Under the pieces are notes generated by a model. It was not told where the DNA came from. It saw nothing but the letters and a program-made list of their open reading frames with translations, and did no database searches. This document shows, in pieces, positions 6,331 through 21,305 of a stretch of DNA of 64,000 bases. The DNA comes from Erythrobacteraceae bacterium. Its GTDB lineage: Bacteria > Pseudomonadota > Alphaproteobacteria > Sphingomonadales > Sphingomonadaceae. Location of the stretch: assembly GCA_024642525.1 (NCBI GenBank), contig JAHEAX010000059.1:248001-312000 (forward strand). Direction: 5' to 3'. Both the position numbers and the translations under genes were made by a program. Position 1 is the first letter of the stretch; each line of letters opens with the position of its first letter.

Positions 6331-7209
6331 ATGACCGGGACGCATCCGAAAATCATCAACGGCCTGTCTGTTGACGTGGAAGACTGGTTCCAGGTCGGTG
6401 CGTTTGAAAAAGTCATCGACCGGCGGGACTGGGACGACCTTTCCCTTCGGGTGGAGGACAATGTCCTGCGCATTCTCGACATGTTCGCCGAAGCAGATGT
6501 GAAGGCGACATTCTTCACACTTGGCTGGGTGGCGCGGCGTAATCCTGCGCTTATCCGCAAAATTGTGGATGCAGGGCATGAACTCGCCAGCCACGGATAT
6601 GATCATGCCCGGGTATTCAACCTCGGGCGTAAGGATTTTGCGGCAGATATAAAGCTGGCGAGGGAAATCCTCGAAGATGCTTCCGGAGTTGCGATTTCCG
6701 GATATCGTGCACCCAGTTTCTCGATCGATCAGCGCACGCCCTGGGCGTATATGGAACTCGCCGAACAGGGATACGCCTATTCTTCCAGCGTCGCGCCTGT
6801 CGCGCATGATCATTACGGGTGGAGCGCGGCACCCCGGTTTGCCTTCAAGCCCCTGCCATGGTCCGATCTGGTTGAAATTCCTGTCACTACGGCAATTCTA
6901 GGCGGCAGGCGCGTTGCCGCAGGCGGGGGCGGGTTTTTCCGCGTGCTGCCTTACGGGTTTTCGCGCTGGGCCATTCGGCAGGTAAACCGGACAGAACAGC
7001 GCCCGGCGGTGTTCTATTTCCATCCATGGGAAATCGACCCGGCCCAGCCGCGTGTTCCTGATGCGCCGATCCGGTCGAAGCTGCGCCATTATACCAACCT
7101 TTCGAAGATGGCGCCAAAGCTGCGCGAACTGGTCCAGGAATTCGACTGGGGCCGGATGGATTTGCTCGCCCACCGCGAGGCTGAGACGGCCACGGGGCTG
7201 GCTGCATGA
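6331..7209 (+). CDS. XrtA-associated polysaccharide deacetylase
   Basis: A 292-residue NodB-fold carbohydrate deacetylase with a DUF3473-like C-terminal part. Motif 1 is SVDVEDWFQ near residue 14 (metal-binding Asp plus adjacent acid), motif 2 is SHGYDH (about 90) with the metal-binding histidines, and motif 3 is YRAPSFS. It would remove N-acetyl groups from the exopolysaccharide or an intermediate. No signal peptide is visible, as in the exosortase-associated subfamily. I prefer the ATG at 6331 to an upstream in-frame ATG at 6298, which would overlap the ATPase gene. The stop overlaps the next start by four bases. Confidence 0.88.
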   Translation: MTGTHPKIINGLSVDVEDWFQVGAFEKVIDRRDWDDLSLRVEDNVLRILDMFAEADVKATFFTLGWVARRNPALIRKIVDAGHELASHGYDHARVFNLGRKDFAADIKLAREILEDASGVAISGYRAPSFSIDQRTPWAYMELAEQGYAYSSSVAPVAHDHYGWSAAPRFAFKPLPWSDLVEIPVTTAILGGRRVAAGGGGFFRVLPYGFSRWAIRQVNRTEQRPAVFYFHPWEIDPAQPRVPDAPIRSKLRHYTNLSKMAPKLRELVQEFDWGRMDLLAHREAETATGLAA

Positions 7210-8270
7210 ACGCGCCGTTTTCCCTTTCCGCCAGCCGCATAAGCACGGCCGATCTGCGTGACCCGAACGAGGCCCAGCGGATTGAGGAATTTGTGGCGCG
7301 CATGGCAGGGACGCCGTTTCATCGGCCACTTTGGCTGAACGCAGTCGAACGCGGCACCGGACAGATCGCCACGGGCCTGGTCGCCGAAGACGAAAGCGGG
7401 ATTATCGGCTGGCTGCCTTTGACACAGGTCCATTCACCTATTTTCGGTCGGGCGCTGGTATCGAGCGGCTTTGCCGTGGGTGGCGGCGTGCTGGCCAGGG
7501 ATGACCGAACCGCCATTGCGCTTTGCCGCAAGGCAGAAGAACTGGCCCAGCGCAGGTCCTGCCCGACTGTTGAATTACGCGGCGGAAATGCCCCGGGTGA
7601 CTGGGACTGGCAGACAGATAGCCACTGCGGCTTCGTTGCAGAAATTGTTGCTGACCGAGACGCCCAATTGCTGGCCATCCCGCGCAAACAGCGCGCGGAA
7701 ATTCGAAAGGGCCTGAACATGGGCCTCAGCATCGAAACAGGCAGCAGCGAAGCCGGCCGTGCAGCGCATTATTCGGTCTATGCCCAATCGGTGCATAATC
7801 TGGGCACGCCGGTTTTTCCGCGATCCCTGTTCGATGCAGTGCTGGATGCGTTCGGGGCGGATGCAAATATCCTTACCGTTCGGCACGAGGGAGCGCCGGT
7901 GGCCAGTGTGCTGTCACTTTATCACCGCGGCGCAGTCATGCCCTATTGGGGCGGCGGCACAGTTGCAGCGCGGCATTTACGCGCCAACGAAGTGATGTAT
8001 TTCGAACTGATGGCGCATGCCGCACTACGCGGCTGTGACACATTCGATTTCGGCAGGTCCAAAACCGGTAGCGGGGCATATCATTACAAGAAGAACTGGG
8101 GCTTTGTGCCGCAGTCGCTGCAATATGCCAGCTGGACTGCACCGGGTGCAAAACGTCGGGATATAAGCCCTGCCAATGATGCCTATTCGGCGAAGATTGC
8201 CTTGTGGAAACGCCTGCCACTCAAAGTCGCCAGCACCATAGGACCATTCATCGCCAGAGGGCTGGCATAA
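7206..8270 (+). CDS. XrtA-associated FemAB-like transferase
   Basis: A 354-residue GNAT-fold protein of the FemAB/Acetyltransf_6 type, a family that transfers aminoacyl or acyl groups onto cell-envelope precursors. The signature of the exosortase-associated group is visible: IPRKQRAEIRKGLN near residue 158, VLSLYHRGAVMPYWGG near 238, and the C-terminal block FDFGRSKTGSGAYHYKKNWG. The substrate is unknown; the context suggests it decorates the polysaccharide or a lipid-linked intermediate. The start overlaps the deacetylase stop (ATGA). Confidence 0.85.
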   Translation: MNAPFSLSASRISTADLRDPNEAQRIEEFVARMAGTPFHRPLWLNAVERGTGQIATGLVAEDESGIIGWLPLTQVHSPIFGRALVSSGFAVGGGVLARDDRTAIALCRKAEELAQRRSCPTVELRGGNAPGDWDWQTDSHCGFVAEIVADRDAQLLAIPRKQRAEIRKGLNMGLSIETGSSEAGRAAHYSVYAQSVHNLGTPVFPRSLFDAVLDAFGADANILTVRHEGAPVASVLSLYHRGAVMPYWGGGTVAARHLRANEVMYFELMAHAALRGCDTFDFGRSKTGSGAYHYKKNWGFVPQSLQYASWTAPGAKRRDISPANDAYSAKIALWKRLPLKVASTIGPFIARGLA

Positions 8271-9502
8271 TGGGCGATATACTCTTCCTCGCGCATCGCA
8301 TCCCGTTCCCGCCCGATCGTGGGGACAAGATCCGGTCGCATCACTTGCTGAAAGCGCTGCAACAGCTTGCCCCTGTTCACATCGGCTGTTTTGCCGACAC
8401 CGACAGTGATCTGCAGCATGAAGACAAGCTGCACGAACATGCCGCCAGCCACATATTGATTCGCCGCACGAAAAGCATGGTGCGGGCAGGGGTGGAAGCA
8501 GTGGCGAGCGGCAAACCGGTGAGCGTGACGGCGTTTGCCCATTGCGCCATGCGCGAATGGGTGCGCCATACGCTGGCCGACCATCAGATTGATACGATCT
8601 TCGTGTTTTCCGGGCAGATGGGCCAATATGTGCCGGACAGTTTCGACGGGCGCGTGGTGATCGACCTTTGCGATGTCGATTCCGCCAAATTTGAAGCCTA
8701 CGCAAAATCAGGCAGTTCGCTGCGCAGCAGGGTGGACGCGCGCGAAGGCCGGGTGCTGGCGGCTGAGGAACACCGCCTTGCACAGCGTGCCGACTTCACC
8801 TTGCTGGTCAGCGAGGCCGAAGCGGCACTGTTCCGGTCAAGGATAAGCCCGCAATTGGCAGGCTCTGTTTTCGCCTTGCGCAACGGCATCGACGCGCAAT
8901 TTTTTGACCCGCAAGCCGTTGGCCCGCATCCCGACATTATCAGCGAGGCAGGACCGCATATCGTCTTTACCGGACAGATGGATTATGCGCCCAACATCGC
9001 CGCCACCATGCGATTTATTGACCATGTCCTGCCGCAAATCCGCGAAATTCATCCCGATGCACAGTTCCACGTGGTGGGCCGCGCGCCGGTTGAACGGCTG
9101 ACAGCCTGCGACGGCATAGGTGGTGTCAGGGTGTGGGGCGAAGTGGCCGATGTAAGGCCCTTTATCGCGGCTGCGGATCTGGTGGTGGCACCTCTCGAAA
9201 TCGCACGCGGCATCCAGAACAAGGTGCTGGAAGCGATGGCCATGGCCCGCCCAGTGCTGCTTACACCTGAAGCAGCAACCGGAATAGATGCGGCAAGCGG
9301 CACGCATTTCGCTGTCGAAGCTAGCAACCAGGCATTGGCAGATCGGGCATTGGCGCTACTCGGCGACGGGCTCACCTCGCTCCGCATGGCCGCAGCAGCG
9401 CGGCGCTATGTGGTCGAGCATCAAAGCTGGCCAGCCATGCTTGCGCCCCTTGCAGGGTTTGTCGGCAAGCCTGCGGCAGAAGCGCACCGTGATGTCGCTT
9501 GA
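8270..9502 (+). CDS. XrtA-associated glycosyltransferase (GT4-like)
   Basis: A 410-residue glycosyltransferase of the exosortase-associated group (TIGR03087-like). The N-terminus has the typical ILFLAHRIPFPPDRGDKIRS segment. The C-terminal Rossmann domain carries HIVFTGQMDYAPNIAA and the donor-binding stretch GIQNKVLEAMAMARPVL, which ends in the conserved Glu of GT-B retaining enzymes. It would add a sugar during repeat-unit assembly on the cytoplasmic face. The ATG at 8270 overlaps the previous stop (TAATG); the longer in-frame version from 8204 lies wholly inside the FemAB gene. Confidence 0.88.
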   Translation: MGDILFLAHRIPFPPDRGDKIRSHHLLKALQQLAPVHIGCFADTDSDLQHEDKLHEHAASHILIRRTKSMVRAGVEAVASGKPVSVTAFAHCAMREWVRHTLADHQIDTIFVFSGQMGQYVPDSFDGRVVIDLCDVDSAKFEAYAKSGSSLRSRVDAREGRVLAAEEHRLAQRADFTLLVSEAEAALFRSRISPQLAGSVFALRNGIDAQFFDPQAVGPHPDIISEAGPHIVFTGQMDYAPNIAATMRFIDHVLPQIREIHPDAQFHVVGRAPVERLTACDGIGGVRVWGEVADVRPFIAAADLVVAPLEIARGIQNKVLEAMAMARPVLLTPEAATGIDAASGTHFAVEASNQALADRALALLGDGLTSLRMAAAARRYVVEHQSWPAMLAPLAGFVGKPAAEAHRDVA

Positions 9503-11054
9503 AGCGCGCCTTCCCTTTTTGCCCGCAGCAATCTTGGCCAGTAGAATAGCGCCTGCATGGCGCAGCCCGTTGCTGCACCTCTGTCTGGGTTGGGCGTTGC
9601 TGGTTTTGCTGGCAAGCCATGACTGGGCCGTGATGATCGACAAGTGGTGGAATGTGTCCACCTACAACCATGTCATCTTCATCCCTTTCATCACCGGCTG
9701 GCTGGTGTGGAACCGCAGGGGCCTGCTGGCCCGGCTGGTGCCTGCTGCATGGTGGCCCGGCCTCGTCGCTTTGGGCGGCGCGCTGTTCCTGTGGCTGCTG
9801 GGCACCATTTCCGGGGTGAATACCGCCAGCCAGCTTGGCGCGGTGCTGTCTTTGCAAGCGGCACTGCTAGCCTTGCTTGGGCCGCGGGTTGGCGCAGCCT
9901 TGCTGTTCCCGCTCGCCTTTCTGCTTTTCCTCGTGCCTTTTGGCGACGAACTTGTGCCGGCGCTGCAGACTATCACGGCCAAACTGGTCATCATGTTGAC
10001 CCATTGGAGCGGCATTCCTGCGGTAATCGATGGGGTATTCATCGAAACCCCGGGCGGGCTCTTCGAAGTGGCAGAAGCCTGCTCGGGCGTGAAATTCCTT
10101 ATCGCAATGGCGGCGTTGGGCGTGCTGGTGGCCAATGTCTGCTTCAAAAGCCCGCTGCGCCGGGCGCTGTTCATGGGCGCGGCCATCCTCCTGCCGATCT
10201 TGGCCAACGGCATCAGGGCGTGGGCGACGATCTATATTGCCCAGTCGCAGGGCATCGAATTTGCCGCAGGTTTCGATCATATTTTCTACGGCTGGGTCTT
10301 TTTCGCGCTGGTGGTGTTTGCCCTGCTGGCCGGTGCCTGGCGCTGGTTCGACCGCGTGCCTGATGACACGGTGCCAGACATTTTGCCCATCATGTCATCG
10401 CCCCGCCTCGGCGCGTTGGCGCGGATGGGCATGAACAGCAAACGCGCGACCCTTATAATGGCCCTTATGATAGGTGCCTTCGCCGGTTGGTCAGTCCTTG
10501 CATCGCAGGTAGAGGCGAAATTGCCGCAATCCATCGACTTGCCAGCGGTCAGCGGGTGGCAGCGGACGGATTATGCACCCGCTGTTCCATGGTCGCCGCG
10601 GGCAACAGGTGCGGCCCATCGTTTGCTTGGCAGTTATGAAGCTGCTGACGGCAGCCAGGTCGATGTGTTTCTCGCGCTATATGCAGCGCAGGAAGATGGG
10701 CGCGAAGCAAGCGCGGCGGGCGAAGGCGCTCTGGTGCCCGATACCGCATGGCGATGGTTGGCAAGCGGGCCGAATGTTCCAGATGCAGCCAGCGAATACC
10801 TTCTCGCCAATGGCCATACGAAAAGGCTTGCCCAGACTTCCTATCGCAGCGGCGAATTGCTGACAGGCAGTGCCGCGCGACTGAAAATGGCGGTGATGGT
10901 TGATCGGCTGTTGCTGCGCGAACGGCCGGCTATGTTGCTCATCCTGTCAGCAGAAGAGCGCGAAGGTGCCGATGCCGCGCAATCCATCGCAAAATTTCGC
11001 CGTGCCGTCGGTGACCAGGGCGAATGGATGGACCGCATCGCCAGTCTTCGATAG
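9492..11054 (+). CDS. xrtA: Exosortase A fused to an EpsI domain
   Basis: A 520-residue multi-pass membrane protein. Residues about 1-310 form the exosortase: around eight hydrophobic helices carrying the catalytic Cys197 (AEACSG), Arg242 (NGIR) and His263 (FDHIFYGW), the transpeptidase-like triad of the family. Residues about 320-520, after one more membrane segment, match the EpsI domain (SGWQRTDYAP, then a polar periplasmic region). It should cleave PEP-CTERM tails and transfer the proteins onto a membrane or polysaccharide anchor. The ATG at 9492 overlaps the glycosyltransferase end by 11 bases; an in-frame extension to 9288 lies inside that gene and is rejected. Confidence 0.93.
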   Translation: MSLEARLPFLPAAILASRIAPAWRSPLLHLCLGWALLVLLASHDWAVMIDKWWNVSTYNHVIFIPFITGWLVWNRRGLLARLVPAAWWPGLVALGGALFLWLLGTISGVNTASQLGAVLSLQAALLALLGPRVGAALLFPLAFLLFLVPFGDELVPALQTITAKLVIMLTHWSGIPAVIDGVFIETPGGLFEVAEACSGVKFLIAMAALGVLVANVCFKSPLRRALFMGAAILLPILANGIRAWATIYIAQSQGIEFAAGFDHIFYGWVFFALVVFALLAGAWRWFDRVPDDTVPDILPIMSSPRLGALARMGMNSKRATLIMALMIGAFAGWSVLASQVEAKLPQSIDLPAVSGWQRTDYAPAVPWSPRATGAAHRLLGSYEAADGSQVDVFLALYAAQEDGREASAAGEGALVPDTAWRWLASGPNVPDAASEYLLANGHTKRLAQTSYRSGELLTGSAARLKMAVMVDRLLLRERPAMLLILSAEEREGADAAQSIAKFRRAVGDQGEWMDRIASLR

Positions 11055-11063
11055 GGCCGCGCC

Positions 11064-12962
11064 ATGTGCGGAATTGCCGGAATATTCCATTGCGAAACAC
11101 CCAAGCCGGTTGATCCGCGCAGGGTAGAACGGATGTGCGATGCGCTGGCGCACCGTGGGCCGGATGGCGCTGCCGTATGGACCGCGCCGGGTATCGGCCT
11201 GGGCCATCGCCGCCTTTCGATCATCGATCTTCATGGTTCGCCGCAGCCGATGCATTCGGCAGACGGGCGCGCGGTCATCGTCTTTAATGGCGAAATCTAC
11301 AATTTCCGTGAATTGCGGGCCGAATTGAAAAGCCTGGGCGCACAGTTCCAGACTGATGGCGATACCGAAGTCATTCTGGCTGCCTACCAGCAATGGGGAA
11401 CTGCGTGCCTGACCCGTTTGCAGGGCATGTTCGCCTTCGCCATTTATGACCTGTCGCGGCGCGAACTGTTTCTTGCGAGGGATAGGCTCGGCGTGAAGCC
11501 ATTGTTCATGGCACCGCTTAGCGATGGCAGCATTGCCTTTGCGTCTGAATTGAAGGGACTGCTAGGTCACCCGCTGCTGCGGCGCGAGGCTGACCCGCTG
11601 GCAGTGGAGGATTACCTTGCCTGGGGCTACGTGCCCGATCATCGCAGTTTTCTAAAGGGCGTGGAAAAATTGCCCGCAGGCCATTTCCGCCTGATGAAAC
11701 ATGGCGCTCCAGCGCCGCGAAGTGTCGAATGGTGGGATGTGAGCTTTGCCGAACGGCGCAAGGGTTCAACCGCCGATCTGTCTGCAGAATTGCTGCATCA
11801 CATGCGCAGCGGCGTCACTTCGCGGATGGTTGCGGACGTGCCGCTGGGCGCCTTCCTGTCGGGTGGTGTCGATTCATCCAGCGTTGTTGCGCTGATGGCA
11901 GAAGCCAGCCGTGAACCGGTGCAGACCTGTTCCATCGGCTTCGATGTCCAGGCGCTCGATGAAACTGAATATGCGCGGCAGGTCTCGAAACTGTTTGGCA
12001 CGCAGCACCATAGCAAGGTCGTCGACCCCGACGATTTTGAAGCGATTGACCGGATCGCCGGTATTTTCGATGAACCCTTTGCCGATGCTTCGGCATTGCC
12101 GATGCTGCGGGTATGCGAACTGGCGCGTGAAAATGTCACCGTTGCCCTGTCCGGCGACGGGGCGGACGAGGCATTTGCGGGATATCGCCGGCAGATTTTT
12201 CATGCGCGTGAAGAACAGGCTCGGTCGGTTTTGCCCGAAGCCCTGCGCCAGCCTGTTTTCGGTGCGTTGGGCAGGGCATGGCCCAAGGCTGACTGGGCAC
12301 CACGTCCACTGCGCGCCAAAAGCACGCTGCTGGCGATGGCTGGCAGCGGCGAAGAAGGCTATGCCCGCGGACTGTCTGTTATCCCGCCGGAATTGCGACA
12401 GGCGCTTTATTCCGACGCATTCTTGAAAACACGCGGTGATTATCGGGCGGAAGACCCGCTGGTAAAACTGATGCGCAATGCGCCGGCCAGGTCGGGCCTC
12501 GACCGGGCGCAATATGCCGATCTCAAATTCTGGTTGCCGGGTGATATTCTGACCAAGGTCGATCGCACCAGCATGGCCGTGAGCCTTGAAGCACGTGAAC
12601 CGCTGCTGGACCACAGATTGATCGAATTTGCTGCCCAATTGCCCCACCGCCAGCGCATTCGCGGGCGGCAGGGCAAATGGCTGATGAAGCACACGATGGA
12701 ACGTTATCTGCCTGACAATATCCTGTATCGCCAGAAACAGGGTTTCGTCACACCGCTGGCGCAATGGCTGCGCGGTCCATTGGCGGGCCAGGCCCGCGCC
12801 ATTGGCCACAGTGCAGCATTGGCGCGGACCGGTTGGTTCAATTCAAAGCGACTTTCCAGCCTTGCGGACGAACATATTTCGGGCCGCAGCGACCATGCCA
12901 GGCTGCTGTGGCAATTGTTGATGCTCGACCGCGCCATTGAAAAGCTTGGACTTTCAAGCTGA
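11064..12962 (+). CDS. XrtA-associated glutamine amidotransferase (asparagine synthase-like)
   Basis: A 632-residue two-domain enzyme. The N-terminal class II glutaminase starts MCGIAGIF, with Cys2 as nucleophile; HRGPDG, GHRRLSIID and FNGEIYN follow. The C-terminal AsnB synthetase domain has the PP-loop FLSGGVDSS (about residue 270) and ALSGDGADEAFAGY. It would use glutamine nitrogen to amidate a carboxylate, most likely a uronic-acid or similar group of the exopolysaccharide, since these homologues are restricted to exosortase loci. It is the last gene of the co-oriented operon, followed within 30 bases by a convergent gene. Confidence 0.9.
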   Translation: MCGIAGIFHCETPKPVDPRRVERMCDALAHRGPDGAAVWTAPGIGLGHRRLSIIDLHGSPQPMHSADGRAVIVFNGEIYNFRELRAELKSLGAQFQTDGDTEVILAAYQQWGTACLTRLQGMFAFAIYDLSRRELFLARDRLGVKPLFMAPLSDGSIAFASELKGLLGHPLLRREADPLAVEDYLAWGYVPDHRSFLKGVEKLPAGHFRLMKHGAPAPRSVEWWDVSFAERRKGSTADLSAELLHHMRSGVTSRMVADVPLGAFLSGGVDSSSVVALMAEASREPVQTCSIGFDVQALDETEYARQVSKLFGTQHHSKVVDPDDFEAIDRIAGIFDEPFADASALPMLRVCELARENVTVALSGDGADEAFAGYRRQIFHAREEQARSVLPEALRQPVFGALGRAWPKADWAPRPLRAKSTLLAMAGSGEEGYARGLSVIPPELRQALYSDAFLKTRGDYRAEDPLVKLMRNAPARSGLDRAQYADLKFWLPGDILTKVDRTSMAVSLEAREPLLDHRLIEFAAQLPHRQRIRGRQGKWLMKHTMERYLPDNILYRQKQGFVTPLAQWLRGPLAGQARAIGHSAALARTGWFNSKRLSSLADEHISGRSDHARLLWQLLMLDRAIEKLGLSS

Positions 12963-15350: not shown

Positions 15351-16133
15351 TCAGATTTGCCGTTCGGCCATCATCTTCTTGGTTTCGGCAATCGCCTTGG
15401 CTGGCGAAAGGCCCTTGGGGCAGACATTCGCGCAGTTCATGATGGTGTGACAGCGATAGAGTTTGAACGGATCTTCCAGATCGTCCAGCCGCTCGCCCGT
15501 CATTTCATCGCGGCTGTCCGCCAGCCAGCGATATGCCTGAAGCAGGATGGCGGGGCCAAGGAACTTGTCGGAATTCCACCAGTAGCTGGGGCATGCGGTG
15601 GAACAGCACGCGCACAGGATGCATTCGTACAGGCCATCCAGCTTTTCACGCTGTTCAGGGCTTTGCAGGCGCTCCTTGCCCGAAGGCGTGGTGCTGACAG
15701 TCTGCAACCAAGGGCGGATCGAGGCGTATTGCGCATAGAAATGGGTGAAGTCAGGGACGAGGTCCTTGATCACTTCCATGTGCGGCAGCGGGGTGATGCG
15801 GATTTCACCCGTCAGGTCTTCCATGGCAGTGGTGCAGGCAAGGCCGTTCTTGCCATTCAGGTTCATCGAGCACGAACCGCAGATGCCTTCCCGGCACGAA
15901 CGGCGGAACGTCAGTGACGGGTCAATCTCGTTCTTGATCTTGATCAGCGCGTCGAGAACCATGGGCCCGCAATCGTCGAGGTCGATTTCGAACGTATCAT
16001 AACGCGGGTTTTCGCCGCTATCAGGATCGTAGCGATAGATCTTGAATTTTTGCACGCGAGCAGCGCCTTGCGCGCCGTAAGTACGGCCCTTGCCGTTGAT
16101 CTTGGAGTTCTTCGGGAGGGTGAAAGTGGCCAT
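15351..16133 (-). CDS. sdhB: Succinate dehydrogenase iron-sulfur subunit SdhB
   Basis: A 260-residue complex II subunit passing electrons from SdhA flavin to quinone. The [2Fe-2S] ligands are in CREGICGSC plus a later Cys of GLAC. The [4Fe-4S] and [3Fe-4S] motifs are [12 protein letters not shown] and [15 protein letters not shown]. It has the usual length and a clean ATG. No sdhC, sdhD or sdhA lies upstream: the next gene is divergent. The subunit is therefore encoded apart from its partners, or they lie outside the window. A thioesterase and zapE follow in the same direction. Confidence 0.96.
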
Positions 16134-17135: not shown

Positions 17136-18140
17136 TCAGTCCATCAGACCGTTGCGGCGCAGGCTTTCTGCAAGGATAGTTTCGATCAGCTGGGACTGCG
17201 ACAGCCCGGCCAGTTTGGCAGCGCGGCCATAGACTTTTTCAGACCAGAGGTTGCAGTTGAGGTTCAATTCCAGGAACGTTACGTCGCCTGTTTCCTCGTT
17301 CACCCTGAATTCGAAACGGCCGTAGTCAAACGGACGGTATTCACCCCATAATTTCTGGGTGTATTCCGTTATTTTCGCAGCCATTTCAGGGTTTTCAAAG
17401 GCATCCAGCGAATATTTCTGGCTTCGGTCCACCAGATCGCGCTTTTCGTAATAAGTGCGCAGATGTGCCGGGTCTGCCTGGCGGAAAATCAGCATCGGCA
17501 GGATGACAGGTTCGCCAATGGTGATAACCGGTACTTCGACATCGCTGCCTTCAAGGAAAGGTTCGACGATGGCATCATGCTTGTCGTCGTGAATTTCCTG
17601 GATTGCAGCGCGCACGCCTGCCCAGTCGGTGGCGTCATGCACGCCCCAGCTGGCCGAAGATGCGTTTGGCTTGATGACATAGCGTTCAGCCTTGGGGCAA
17701 TTCGCTTCGTCCACCGGCGCGCCGCGGCGATAGATTGCCCATGGCGCGGTTGGTACGCCAGCAGCCACTGCGGCGCGCTTTGCCAGGTGTTTGTCATCCG
17801 ACAATCCACGCAAGATCGGGCTGGCACCAAGGAAAGGGATGCCCAGCCGAGTGCACAAAAGCGGGCCGAGCATCTCGGAATTGAAGAAACCGGCACGGTT
17901 GAGAAGCGGGAAGACGAAATCAACATCCGGATTTTCGAACAGCACTTCGAAGCTGTTGGCCAGCGTCAGGTTCAGGCCAAGGTCTTCGAGAATGCCACGC
18001 ACTTCGTGATGGTAAACCGCATGGTTGCCATCTTCAGGGTGCAGGGTTCCGTCGCCCATCGCGTGCTTGGCAATGAACATGATCCGCAGGCGATCCTTGG
18101 TTGCCTGGTCAATCGTCAGTGGGGTAATTTCTAAAGCCAA
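17136..18140 (-). CDS. ATP-grasp ligase (D-Ala-D-Ala ligase/RimK-like), substrate unknown
   Basis: A 334-residue ATP-grasp enzyme. Visible features are a preATP-grasp strand (LRIMFIAKHAM), the nucleotide-binding segment RYVIKPNASSASWGVH, the acidic ATP-clamp block IVEPFLEGSDVEVPVI, and the C-terminal metal-binding loop FLELNLNCNLW. Such enzymes join a carboxylate to an amine via an acylphosphate. I place the start at a TTG at 18140 because GAAGGG lies 7 bases upstream and the first beta-strand would otherwise be cut; the next ATG is at 18080. The frame stays open to 18323, but that part overlaps the divergent gene. It probably acts with the neighbouring PLP enzyme (inference). Confidence 0.7.
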   Translation of the reverse strand: MALEITPLTIDQATKDRLRIMFIAKHAMGDGTLHPEDGNHAVYHHEVRGILEDLGLNLTLANSFEVLFENPDVDFVFPLLNRAGFFNSEMLGPLLCTRLGIPFLGASPILRGLSDDKHLAKRAAVAAGVPTAPWAIYRRGAPVDEANCPKAERYVIKPNASSASWGVHDATDWAGVRAAIQEIHDDKHDAIVEPFLEGSDVEVPVITIGEPVILPMLIFRQADPAHLRTYYEKRDLVDRSQKYSLDAFENPEMAAKITEYTQKLWGEYRPFDYGRFEFRVNEETGDVTFLELNLNCNLWSEKVYGRAAKLAGLSQSQLIETILAESLRRNGLMD

Positions 18141-18163
18141 AATAGGGCCCTTCAATTGCTTTA

Positions 18164-18194
18164 AACCGCCCTTTAGGTCTGCTAACGGGCGGTT
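18164..18194. promoter_or_regulatory. Long inverted repeat in the ATP-grasp/PLP divergent intergenic region
   Basis: Two 13-base arms (18164-18176 AACCGCCCTTTAG and 18182-18194 CTAACGGGCGGTT) pair at 12 of 13 positions around a 5-base spacer. The element sits in the 82-bp gap between the two divergent start codons. It could be an operator shared by both promoters, or a hairpin in one or both leader RNAs. No T-run follows on either side, which argues against an intrinsic terminator. Confidence 0.6.
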
Positions 18195-18222
18195 CCAAGC
18201 AGAATTCTGGGAAGAAGCCCAC

Positions 18223-19695
18223 ATGGCACCCGATTTTCCGGACTTCGCTCCGGATTCATTATTGTCCGATACAGCACGGCAGGCAATCGCACTTTTGTCC
18301 AGCGGGGGCGATGCGCGGATCACTCTTGACCCGCAGACCGGCCTTAACCGGTATATGTCTGCGCCCTATCCGCGCAAGGCATTGGCCTTTGCTTCGTCCA
18401 CCGCAAATGACCTCTCAAAAGCTGCATTCAGCCATGTGGTTGGCATCGTGGAAAACGGGCTGGGCGCCTATGCGCCGCGCCTCGCCGCATTGCGCGACCG
18501 GATTCGCGCCGCCTATACCATCGGCGATGCCGCGGATGTGGTCTTCGCGCCATCTGGTACCGATCTCGAATATGTCGCGCTGGCGGCGGTGCTTGGCCGC
18601 AGCGAAGGCGGCATCCACAATATCCTGCTGGGCGCGGACGAAGTCGGCAGGGGCTGCGTCCATTCCGCCAATGGCGATTATTTCGCGGGCGAAACCGCGC
18701 TTGGTGTCGCAACAGAGCCGAAGCGATCGGTCGAGGGGCTCGAAAATGTCAGCCTGACCGATATTGCCGTGCGCTGCGAAGAAGGGATTGCACTCGAAAG
18801 TAGTGAAATACTCGATGCCATAATCATCGAGTTGGAACGTGCGCGTTCGATGGGCAAACATGCGCTGGTCCACGTGGTCCACGGGTCAAAGACCGGCCTG
18901 ATTTTGCCGCAGGGGGCAGAGCTTGATCGGCTGGAAGCGGAATTTCCTGGCCAGTTTACTCTGGTCGTGGATGCCTGCCAGGCTCGCATCGCCAGCCCTG
19001 CCGTGCATGAATATCTGGACCGCGGGGCGATTGTGTTCCTGACAGGGTCGAAATTCATGGGTGGTCCGCCATTCAGCGGCTTTGCAGTTTTGCCCAAGGC
19101 AATGGTGCGCGACGCTGCGGCAATGCCCGCCGGTTTTGCGACCATTTTCCGGCGCGCGGAATGGCCTGCCGACTGGGCCGGCACCGAAATCTTGAGCGAT
19201 GATGAAAATCAGGGTCTTGCCCTGCGTCTGGAAGCTTCGGTGTTCGAGCTTGAGCGGTTCCAGTTGCTGCCCGTGCCGCAAGTTTATGCGGTTATCGCCA
19301 GCTTCCAGCGGGCGCTGGCTGATACGCTGCTGGCACCCTTCGGCTTTAATCTGGTCAAACCTTATCCTGATGGTGAGGAATCCGAAGCGCGCGAGCATCC
19401 GATTGAAATGCAGACGCTGGCGACACTGGATGTAAGCTCCTTGCCATGTGCGCGCAGTTTCGAGCAGGCAGAAGCGCTGCACAAGGCGCTGGCGCTGTCA
19501 GGCGTGCGGCTGGGGCAGCCGGTTAAAAGCGTGCGGACGATTGAAGGCGAATGGGCGGGGACGCTCCGTGTTGGCCTGTCGATGGGGCAAATCAGCCGCT
19601 GGGCTTCGCTCACCCCGGACGAACAGCTTGCCACCATTTCAGCCGAATTGCAGCAAGTCGCGCAAGCGATGCGCGAAGCAGCCGCGCTGGCCTGA
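18223..19695 (+). CDS. PLP-dependent fold-type I enzyme (aminotransferase class V-like), function unknown
   Basis: A 490-residue pyridoxal-phosphate enzyme. The phosphate-binding turn is APSGTDLEY (residues 109-117), the pyridine-N aspartate is Asp250 in VVDACQARI, and the Schiff-base lysine is Lys277 in LTGSKFMGGPPFSG. The arrangement resembles class V aminotransferases, cysteine desulfurases and kynureninases, but the length and C-terminal part match none of these clearly. The start at 18223 has a good GGGAAGAAG site. It is divergent from the ATP-grasp gene; the pair suggests amino-acid-derived metabolite synthesis, which is inference. Confidence 0.7.
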   Translation: MAPDFPDFAPDSLLSDTARQAIALLSSGGDARITLDPQTGLNRYMSAPYPRKALAFASSTANDLSKAAFSHVVGIVENGLGAYAPRLAALRDRIRAAYTIGDAADVVFAPSGTDLEYVALAAVLGRSEGGIHNILLGADEVGRGCVHSANGDYFAGETALGVATEPKRSVEGLENVSLTDIAVRCEEGIALESSEILDAIIIELERARSMGKHALVHVVHGSKTGLILPQGAELDRLEAEFPGQFTLVVDACQARIASPAVHEYLDRGAIVFLTGSKFMGGPPFSGFAVLPKAMVRDAAAMPAGFATIFRRAEWPADWAGTEILSDDENQGLALRLEASVFELERFQLLPVPQVYAVIASFQRALADTLLAPFGFNLVKPYPDGEESEAREHPIEMQTLATLDVSSLPCARSFEQAEALHKALALSGVRLGQPVKSVRTIEGEWAGTLRVGLSMGQISRWASLTPDEQLATISAELQQVAQAMREAAALA

Positions 19696-19714: not shown

Positions 19715-20608
19715 TCAAATGCCTGCCAGTTTCGCTGTATCGAGAATCGCGGCCGCAAACCCGTCAGGATCGTCTTCCTGAATGAAATGCCCGCCCTTCA
19801 AGGTGCGATGCAGATCGTGTTTCGCACCCGGAATCCGTTCCCTGAACGGAGCATCGCCGCCCCGCGTTATCGGATCGCCATCGCTGAAACAGCAGGTGAA
19901 GGGTTTGTCGAAAGTTTCGAGGACTTTCCACGCTGCCAACTGATCCGGCACGGCAACATTTTCGCCCAATGGCACCAGTGACGGGAATATCCGCGCACCG
20001 GCCTTGCTGGCACGGGTGGCAAAGGGCGCATCATAGGCGCACACGACATCGTCACCGAGTTCAGTTGTGGTGGCCCGCTGGATGATGCCACCAATCGGGA
20101 ACACGGGGCTCATCTTTGAAAAGGCGCGCCACGCGGCAAAGGCCGGCGGCGGGTCCTGACCGGCCGGAAGCCCGCCATTGGCGAGTACAACCCCTGCAAA
20201 TTTGTCAGGCATCGCTGCAACCAGCCGCAGGCCGATCAGTGAGCCCCAGTCCTGGCAGGCCAGGATCACGCGTTCCAGCCCGAGCGCGGTGAACCATTCC
20301 TGCATCCATGCAACATGGCCCGCATAGGAATATGCGCCCTTGGATGTCAGCTTGTCCGATTTGCCAAAGCCCACCAGATCTGGCGCAACCACCCGGTAGC
20401 CTGCTTGCACCACAGGCGGAATCATCTTGCGGTAAAGGAAGCTCCAGCTCGGTTCGCCATGGATCATCAGAACAATGGGCGCATCGCGCGGACCTTCGTC
20501 GACATAATGCATACGCAAACCGTCGCCCAGCGTGTGATAATGCGGGGGGAAGGGAAAGTCAGGCACATTGGAGAACCTGTCATCAGGTGTGCGATAGATT
20601 TCGGCCAT
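19715..20608 (-). CDS. dhmA: Haloalkane dehalogenase (HLD-I type)
   Basis: A 297-residue alpha/beta hydrolase. The nucleophile is Asp120 followed by Trp121 (ACQDWGS), the oxyanion/halide motif is HGEPSWSFLYR with Glu52, the catalytic acid is probably Asp245 (DGDPITRG) and the base is His274 (KGGHFIQED). The placement of the acid after strand 7 fits subfamily I (DhlA/DhmA). The reaction would be hydrolysis of haloalkanes to alcohol and halide; substrate range cannot be predicted. The start ATG at 20608 follows AAAGGA; in-frame sequence upstream to 20779 overlaps the divergent methyltransferase gene and is rejected. Confidence 0.88.
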   Translation of the reverse strand: MAEIYRTPDDRFSNVPDFPFPPHYHTLGDGLRMHYVDEGPRDAPIVLMIHGEPSWSFLYRKMIPPVVQAGYRVVAPDLVGFGKSDKLTSKGAYSYAGHVAWMQEWFTALGLERVILACQDWGSLIGLRLVAAMPDKFAGVVLANGGLPAGQDPPPAFAAWRAFSKMSPVFPIGGIIQRATTTELGDDVVCAYDAPFATRASKAGARIFPSLVPLGENVAVPDQLAAWKVLETFDKPFTCCFSDGDPITRGGDAPFRERIPGAKHDLHRTLKGGHFIQEDDPDGFAAAILDTAKLAGI

Positions 20609-20669
20609 GGAAATTCCTTTCAGTCCGGCGCATGATGCCTGTCGAGGGCGCGATTGGGAAGGGATGACG

Positions 20670-21305
20670 ATGGGGCTGGCAAGTTGGTGGGATAGGCATG
20701 GCGTTCCGCGAATAATCAAGGTGGCGTGCGGTGCGCCGCAAATATTGAAACTGCGTTCGCAGCTTATTCCCCTGGCCAAGGGCGATGTGTTTGAACTGGG
20801 CTGCGGCGGCGGGATAAACCAGCAGTTCTACCGCGCCGATGCCATCACCAGCTATGCCGGTATCGACCCGGGTGCCAAGCTGCTGGAATATGCGCGCGGC
20901 GAGGCTGAAAAGAAGGGATGGAAAGCCGATATCCGCGATGGAATTGGCGAAGATATCCCCTTCGAGAGCGAAAGCTTCGACACGGTTGTCTGCACCTACA
21001 CGCTATGTTCGGTGCAGGATTCAGCGCAGGTTCTGAAGGAAATGCGCCGTATATTGCGGCCCGGCGGCACATTGCTGTTCCTCGAACATGGTCGTGCGCC
21101 CGATGCCGATGTCGCCAAATGGCAGGATCGCATCGAACCTGTCTGGAAACCCATTGCAGGCGGTTGCCATCTGACCCGCCCGATCACCAGTGCCGTCAGG
21201 CAAGGGGGTTTCGAAGTGCAGCCAATGGGCGCGCAATATACGCCCAAGACGCCGCGCTGGGCTGGCTGGATGGAATGGGGTTCGGCAGTAAAAAGCGATA
21301 CCTGA
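20670..21305 (+). CDS. Class I SAM-dependent methyltransferase
   Basis: A 211-residue Rossmann-fold methyltransferase of the UbiE/METTL7-like group. Motif I is VFELGCGGGINQQFY (about residue 40), motif II is SYAGIDPG, motif III is DIPFESESFDTVVCTYTLC and the post-motif is LRPGGTLLFLEHGR. There is no membrane segment, and the substrate is unknown. I prefer the ATG at 20670, with GGAAGG 6-7 bases upstream, over the ATG at 20664, which abuts that site. It is divergent from the dehalogenase (61-bp gap) and followed 13 bases later by a hydrolase. Confidence 0.85.
   Translation: MGLASWWDRHGVPRIIKVACGAPQILKLRSQLIPLAKGDVFELGCGGGINQQFYRADAITSYAGIDPGAKLLEYARGEAEKKGWKADIRDGIGEDIPFESESFDTVVCTYTLCSVQDSAQVLKEMRRILRPGGTLLFLEHGRAPDADVAKWQDRIEPVWKPIAGGCHLTRPITSAVRQGGFEVQPMGAQYTPKTPRWAGWMEWGSAVKSDT

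Follow-up and report, generated by a model that had tools for sequence, protein, structure and literature searches.

Pathways that combine an ATP-grasp ligase with an enzyme dependent on pyridoxal 5'-phosphate (PLP) are already a known kind. In the phosphonoalamide pathway (PnaA-PnaD), a PLP enzyme works with two ATP-grasp ligases to make small peptides without a nonribosomal peptide synthetase (NRPS), according to the available part of the report (PMC11867202). For fungal E-64, the accessible sections of PMC12568646 describe an ATP-grasp ligase and reason that a PLP decarboxylase supplies the amine. In Shewanella, flagellin mass shifts upon loss of the ATP-grasp protein of sfmABCDE (available text of PMC3765264), and archaeal pseudomurein clusters include an ATP-grasp protein and a MobA-like NTP transferase (available text of PMC11915815). 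The present work concerns a stretch of 64,000 nucleotides, hereafter the window, from an Erythrobacteraceae bacterium of the order Sphingomonadales (assembly GCA_024642525.1, contig JAHEAX010000059.1, positions 248,001 to 312,000), in which a Ddl-like ATP-grasp ligase (AG) and a PLP enzyme of an unnamed family are encoded divergently. An earlier note had regarded the two as a candidate pathway for an amino-acid-derived metabolite, and both open reading frames exist as it had located them. We propose tentatively, with somewhat less than even confidence, that the pair is half of a four-gene, NRPS-independent pathway split over two loci, the window and contig C24 of the same genome. No description of this pair, of the four-gene set or of the PLP family was recognised in the open-access literature searched. 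What seems new is a PLP family devoid of database models, the way in which it recurs beside amide-forming enzymes of different kinds, and the distribution of the four genes over two loci.

The pair is widely conserved. An AG alignment, run against one genome per species, yielded 221 relatives, and the best 80 loci were kept. A PLP gene or its remnant lies immediately upstream of AG, in opposite orientation, at 75 of the 80 loci, covering 16 named genera; as the 80 loci are the closest relatives of AG, this proportion has to be read as an upper bound for the family as a whole. The 75 include four genes cut by contig ends (L025, L027, L092, L095), two remnants (L064, L067) and two partial or two-frame genes (L050, L054), and the five loci without PLP gene are L029, L030 (at a contig start), L041, L068 and L096. 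Counted by chosen start codons, 69/80 loci are divergent, a figure that omits four loci where the chosen starts overlap (L021, L025, L032, L061) and two with short PLP pieces (L027, L064); adding all six gives the 75. Among 147 genomes drawn evenly from the order, a single-sequence search, which could miss diverged copies, found the PLP gene in eight genomes, and AG was divergent beside it in all eight.

The gene sdhB is a landmark of the common neighbourhood and stands outside the module. Among 74 loci with a full-length pair (PLP enzyme >440 aa, AG >300 aa; three duplicates judged by contig, L014/L022, L016/L053 and L018/L079), an sdhB match was found at 56 and none in the fetched stretch at the other 18, one of which, L082, lies on a contig of 4.9 kb. 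These 18 pairs indicate that the linkage is more than regional synteny. At the 52 loci where sdhB and zapE are present as well, the distances of the PLP enzyme and AG correlate with r = 0.725, and a partial correlation of 0.51 is left once sdhB and zapE are removed; for PLP-zapE and AG-zapE the corresponding partial correlations amount to 0.16 and 0.38. The conservation of the divergent neighbours past a few strains, on which the earlier note had staked its idea, was thus observed.

Two partner genes extend the pair. A MobA-like nucleotidyltransferase (here NTP) starts at most about 21 nt from the end of AG at 24/80 loci and overlaps AG in 11 of these. A Wzx-like flippase is present at 12/80 loci, always together with NTP (12/12; starts approximate). 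The cluster NTP matches NTP_transf_3 with 32 bits, its best PDB match being an uncharacterised Thermus protein, and the two cluster flippases tested match Polysacc_synt with 36.8 and 49.2 bits. In the genome of the window, relatives of these two genes, joined at the 12 loci, lie side by side on C24 (locus L109; Table 1), in keeping with the view of the earlier note that the pathway would be small or encoded in part elsewhere; the four genes are therefore all present, as the window pair and C24 6392-8472. What began as a two-gene hunch becomes a set that can be tested, its partners named and two of them located away from the window in this genome. An adjacent NTP-flippase pair apart from AG was found in seven further genomes (L188, L189, L191-L195). 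Where a separate NTP locus was fetched from AG-bearing genomes, the flippase adjoins NTP in 8/11, the genome of the window counted, as against 0/5 AG-free genomes with a weaker NTP. The three AG-bearing genomes without an adjoining flippase are G122, G065 and G059. In the 147-genome draw, 15 genomes have an NTP above 300 bits, all within the 16 AG-bearing genomes of the family of the window; this apparent confinement is supportive at most, with the 300-bit line set after the scores were known and a profile containing sequences of at least two scored genomes and of relatives. NTP also adjoins AG in several PLP-free genomes, of this and other families. No conserved third gene was found beside the separate NTP-flippase pairs beyond apparent regional synteny. 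The archaeal pseudomurein clusters differ in their carbamoyl-phosphate-synthase-like ATP-grasp protein, Mur ligases and MraY-like enzyme, all outside the present module (PMC11915815, available text). Two Sphingobium loci (L065, L066) carry a second NTP copy and two further proteins beside the flippase, which in L066 are weakly thymidylate-kinase-like (below cut-off) and phospholipid-methyltransferase-like.

From the genetic linkage, the correlated divergence of the pair, the partner genes and the predicted folds, we infer that the pathway would most likely yield an amide-bearing, nucleotide-activated and membrane-flipped product. The PLP enzyme would convert an alpha-amino acid into an unusual amine or amino-acid building block. 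AG, to judge from its fold and conserved residues, would phosphorylate a carboxylate and couple it to the amine, forming an amide. By their families, NTP may then use a nucleotide to activate either the product or its acceptor, and the flippase may move the product, lipid-carried or as a lipid head group, over the inner membrane. The flippase partner would suit a membrane-linked product at least as well as the small amino-acid-derived metabolite initially imagined.

AG matches the Pfam domain Dala_Dala_lig_C with 56.5 bits (cut-off 24) and TIGR01205, the D-alanine--D-alanine ligase model, with 72.9 bits, well under the cut-off of 245.65. Its model, predicted from 41 sequences, has a pLDDT of 92.8 and is most similar to the DdlB chain 8evz (Z 30.3, 2.7 A over 301 residues, 20% identity); AG is thus predicted to have a Ddl-type ATP-grasp fold. 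Twenty-two columns are invariant among the 41 relatives, among others K117, K121, K157, E193, K233, D272, E291 and N293, which would correspond to catalytic positions of Ddl. AG differs from Ddl in score and in the stretch past the last metal-type residues, which reads NLNCNLWS in AG and NTxPGMT in Ddl. The earlier assignment of an amide- or peptide-bond-forming enzyme agrees with these results at the level of family and fold, from which the reaction class would be carboxylate phosphorylation followed by amide formation. AG was rejected as the housekeeping Ddl: a separate, stronger Dala_Dala_lig_C match (131.6 bits) is found on contig C30 of the same genome, and AG is therefore probably not that enzyme. 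A second, Ddl-like AG paralogue is present at 9/80 loci, the L030 copy being a fragment at a contig start. In genome G077, a sugar-transfer associated ATP-grasp protein (PF14397, 119.6 bits; L175 8607-9770) comes immediately behind a Ddl-like paralogue.

The PLP enzyme fits no named family, as had been remarked from its sequence. No Pfam or NCBIfam family was matched at E up to 0.1, the aminotransferase class V and cysteine desulfurase models included, and no PDB sequence at E up to 1. Its predicted model (60 sequences; pLDDT 95.7, pTM 0.94) has a fold of type I. By VIA-align it is similar to the NifS-like 4ixo (Z 24.4, 3.5 A over 339 residues, 13% identity) and to the 2-aminoethylphosphonate (AEP) transaminase 7e7g (Z 22.9, 3.6 A over 346 residues, 16%), and all 50 rows of the listing are within 2.5 Z of 4ixo. 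Serine hydroxymethyltransferases and a carbon-sulfoxide lyase head the Foldseek ranking, with a TM of about 0.5. Since many fold-type-I enzymes score similarly, these lists choose no reaction; the model appears closest to class-V, NifS-like folds. The enzyme thus resembles NifS/SufS cysteine desulfurases and AEP and alanine-glyoxylate transaminases in predicted fold but is unlike class-V enzymes in having no sequence-family match, and about 150 of its 490 residues fall outside the aligned class-V core. Twenty-six columns are invariant in the 60 aligned sequences, including K277 (in GSK), D250 and Q253 (in DACQ), K223 and R449. Profile comparison with a cysteine desulfurase is borderline (E 0.016); it pairs the DACQ blocks of the two proteins and, in the same weak alignment, sets the invariant K223 opposite a desulfurase asparagine. 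The motifs and general knowledge of class V would assign the Schiff base to K277, the role of PLP-ring aspartate to D250 and carboxylate binding to the arginine R449; this presumed role of R449 suggests an alpha-amino acid as substrate.

The PLP family is also found in 7/385 genomes of the class (one as a weak fragment) and 25/398 genomes of the phylum. Outside the order, with the weak fragment set aside, this makes 23 genomes, and the flanks of 17 were fetched. A three-gene row of a group-II decarboxylase, a tetratricopeptide repeat (TPR)/ATP-grasp-like protein of about 400 aa and the PLP enzyme is present at 12/17 loci. Two more, L227 and L235, have the decarboxylase with a different ATP-grasp protein (L227 by Pfam, L235 by weak profile matches), so that 14/17 loci, in other families of the phylum, associate the PLP family with decarboxylase and ATP-grasp-like proteins. 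None of these partners was found at L204 and L228, and L233 sits at the end of its contig. Among PDB sequences the ~400-aa partner matches RimK-type 3vpd best (E 2.6e-5), followed by Ddl chains (E 0.0025), and it matches NCBIfam rimK_fam with E 0.0018. A direct relation to AG was rejected (profile comparison probability 1.5%, E 0.034); the ATP-grasp label of the partner consequently derives from the weak PDB and NCBIfam matches and a motif. The ~400-aa protein occurs in 30/369 genomes, 17 of them PLP-positive; above 530 bits, 16/18 genomes are PLP-positive (G778 and G840 are not), compared with 1/12 (G476) among weaker matches.

Four of the 12 three-gene rows (L205, L206, L231, L234), spanning three taxonomic families, adjoin flagellin, FliD, FliS, FlaG or FlbT genes, so that flagellin decoration is a possible role for them, judging from gene context. 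The rows recall Shewanella sfmABCDE in this respect, whose report does not contain the words pyridoxal or aminotransferase in its main text (PMC3765264). They also resemble the E-64 pathway, which differs in being fungal, in using another ATP-grasp family and, in the available part of PMC12568646, in having no homologue of the PLP enzyme. The genome of the window has no PF00282 match, that is no group-II decarboxylase, and a decarboxylase partner as in the distant rows was rejected for it.

PLP homologues are present in 33 plasmid records, of which five loci were fetched. In two of the five, on rhizobial plasmids, the homologue comes directly after a very large NRPS/polyketide synthase (PKS) gene. 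On a Neorhizobium plasmid (L009) it stands beside an annotated D-aminopeptidase, a D-alanine aminotransferase and a peptide/nickel ABC transporter. At the unannotated plasmid loci L011 and L013, no ATP-grasp partner turned up in profile searches; the list of open reading frames of L013 holds no NRPS, and L011 has the neighbour families of L013. Near the homologue on a Rhizobium jaguaris plasmid (L012 13238-17098) is a four-gene row of a cytidylyltransferase-family protein, a SelA/DgaE-like PLP protein, a GHMP kinase and a CDP-alcohol phosphatidyltransferase. Lacking any match in Pfam or NCBIfam, the PLP family stands out by recurring beside amide-forming enzymes of different kinds. Its members might even be a widespread unrecognised class that supplies or tailors the amine side of amide-conjugated surface structures, acting in sphingomonads with a Ddl-like ligase, NTP and flippase on a lipid or glycan of the envelope, in other Pseudomonadota with a decarboxylase and a RimK-like ATP-grasp protein on flagella, and on rhizobial plasmids with very large NRPSs; this generalisation is speculative and on balance unlikely. 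Once the reaction of one member is solved, many genomes could be annotated, and a new building block of envelope or flagellar decoration might come to light.

Several observations weigh against the split four-gene pathway. The link between its two window genes is one-sided: the PLP enzyme accompanies AG, and AG is independent of it. In the 147-genome draw AG is present in 36 genomes, 28 of which gave no PLP match in the single-sequence search; 18 of these 28 were checked at the AG locus with a PLP profile, and none had the gene. Remnants of the PLP gene stand beside an intact AG in L064 (7357-7536) and L067 (7545-7886), so that the PLP gene can be lost and AG retained. Such decay, together with the many AG genes that have no PLP neighbour, makes the PLP enzyme at most accessory to AG. 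PLP genes outside the order are accompanied by other ATP-grasp-like proteins and a decarboxylase, or else by an NRPS. The residual AG-zapE correlation shows that part of the signal is regional inheritance. As for the partners, NTP is not found in the fetched stretch at 56/80 loci and the flippase at 68/80, NTP has no neighbouring flippase of this family in G122 and G065, and G059 is exceptional in carrying the PLP-AG pair with an NTP of 151 bits only. The makeup of the NTP profile and the post hoc 300-bit line further imply that shared ancestry inflates the match between NTP and AG. The joint pathway that the earlier note suggested is supported insofar as the pair is kept, and is weakened by the AG genomes with no PLP match and by the different partners of the PLP family outside the order.

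Other explanations of the same genes were considered. The PLP enzyme could make an odd amino acid that one or more ligases couple into a free, diffusible pseudo-peptide, NTP and the flippase serving another pathway; we consider this possible, if rather doubtful. It would follow an established recipe, an ATP-grasp ligase with a PLP enzyme (PMC11867202 and PMC12568646, in their available parts), and it is consistent with the many loci at which NTP was not found and with the PLP homologues that directly follow NRPS/PKS genes on the two rhizobial plasmids. The second Ddl-like paralogue likewise recalls the two-ligase logic of the phosphonoalamides. Their PnaA is nevertheless of the aspartate-aminotransferase superfamily, and NTP and the flippase are linked here instead. 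The position of NTP directly after AG at 24/80 loci, and next to AG even in PLP-free genomes, argues against a pseudo-peptide, and the flippase aside, no exporter was recognised by eye in the 60 commonest neighbour families. A phosphonate version is unlikely as phosphoenolpyruvate (PEP) mutase was not found (no TIGR02320 match in the genome of the window), and this route was rejected.

A racemase or epimerase feeding a D-amino acid to the Ddl-like ligase, for an altered peptide or envelope peptide, seems distinctly improbable. The predicted Ddl fold of AG and the D-amino-acid context of the Neorhizobium homologue would agree with it, and the invariant K223 opposite the desulfurase asparagine might provide an extra base. 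This context is however seen at one locus only, the desulfurase alignment is borderline, and the ATP-grasp-like partner found elsewhere matches RimK-type proteins better than Ddl chains. That the two genes are neighbours by shared regional ancestry alone, with unrelated functions, is very improbable: much of the conservation is regional synteny, given the sdhB match at most pair loci, and AG is often found without PLP gene, but the pairs lacking an sdhB match, the partial correlation of 0.51, the adjoining AG in every PLP-bearing genome of the draw and the repeated association of the PLP family with further ATP-grasp-like proteins all argue against it. The split four-gene pathway is the explanation that we prefer, in the tentative sense given above.

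Table 1. Coordinates of the gene pair, its intergenic region and associated features (window positions unless a contig is given).
Feature	Location	Strand	Remarks
AG, Ddl-fold ATP-grasp ligase (fold predicted)	17136..18140	-	334 aa with TTG start at 18140
PLP enzyme, fold-type-I, class-V-like (predicted), family without name	18223..19695	+	490 aa, ATG at 18223
Divergent intergenic region AG/PLP	18141..18222	.	82 bp, TTG start assumed for AG
Inverted repeat in AG/PLP gap	18164..18194	.	8 bp perfect; possible operator or leader hairpin
sdhB, succinate dehydrogenase iron-sulfur subunit	15351..16133	-	NCBIfam NF004616, 378.2 bits
NTP relative, same genome	contig C24 (L109) 7684-8472	-	46% identical to L033 cluster copy
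Flippase relative, same genome	contig C24 (L109) 6392-7663	-	32-54% identical to six cluster copies

The shared gap of 82 bp reported by the earlier note is correct with the TTG start of AG. The minus-strand frame of AG stays open up to 18323, and a codon-usage script favours an in-frame ATG at 18080; the start may thus lie there, in which case the gap would be 142 bp. The 82-bp gap was rejected as a genomic repeat, being single copy in its genome. The predicted folding of its 82 nt reaches -34.4 kcal/mol (z -4.38). The pattern of its inverted repeat has no second match in the window; the repeat is found also in the closest relative, L021, and is not evident in L022. Compared with L021, dN/dS is 0.037 for AG and 0.097 for the PLP gene, and across four relatives it ranges from 0.037 to 0.166 in 7/8 comparisons, the eighth having a saturated dS; both genes look to be under purifying selection.

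Two other features of the window were recorded. Convergent with the PLP gene, a haloalkane-dehalogenase-like alpha/beta hydrolase is encoded at 19715-20779 on the minus strand (NF002043, 397 bits, cut-off 265). At 9288-12962, an XrtA/PEP-CTERM system amidotransferase (TIGR03108, 962.9 bits) adjoins a membrane protein that was judged exosortase-like by eye.

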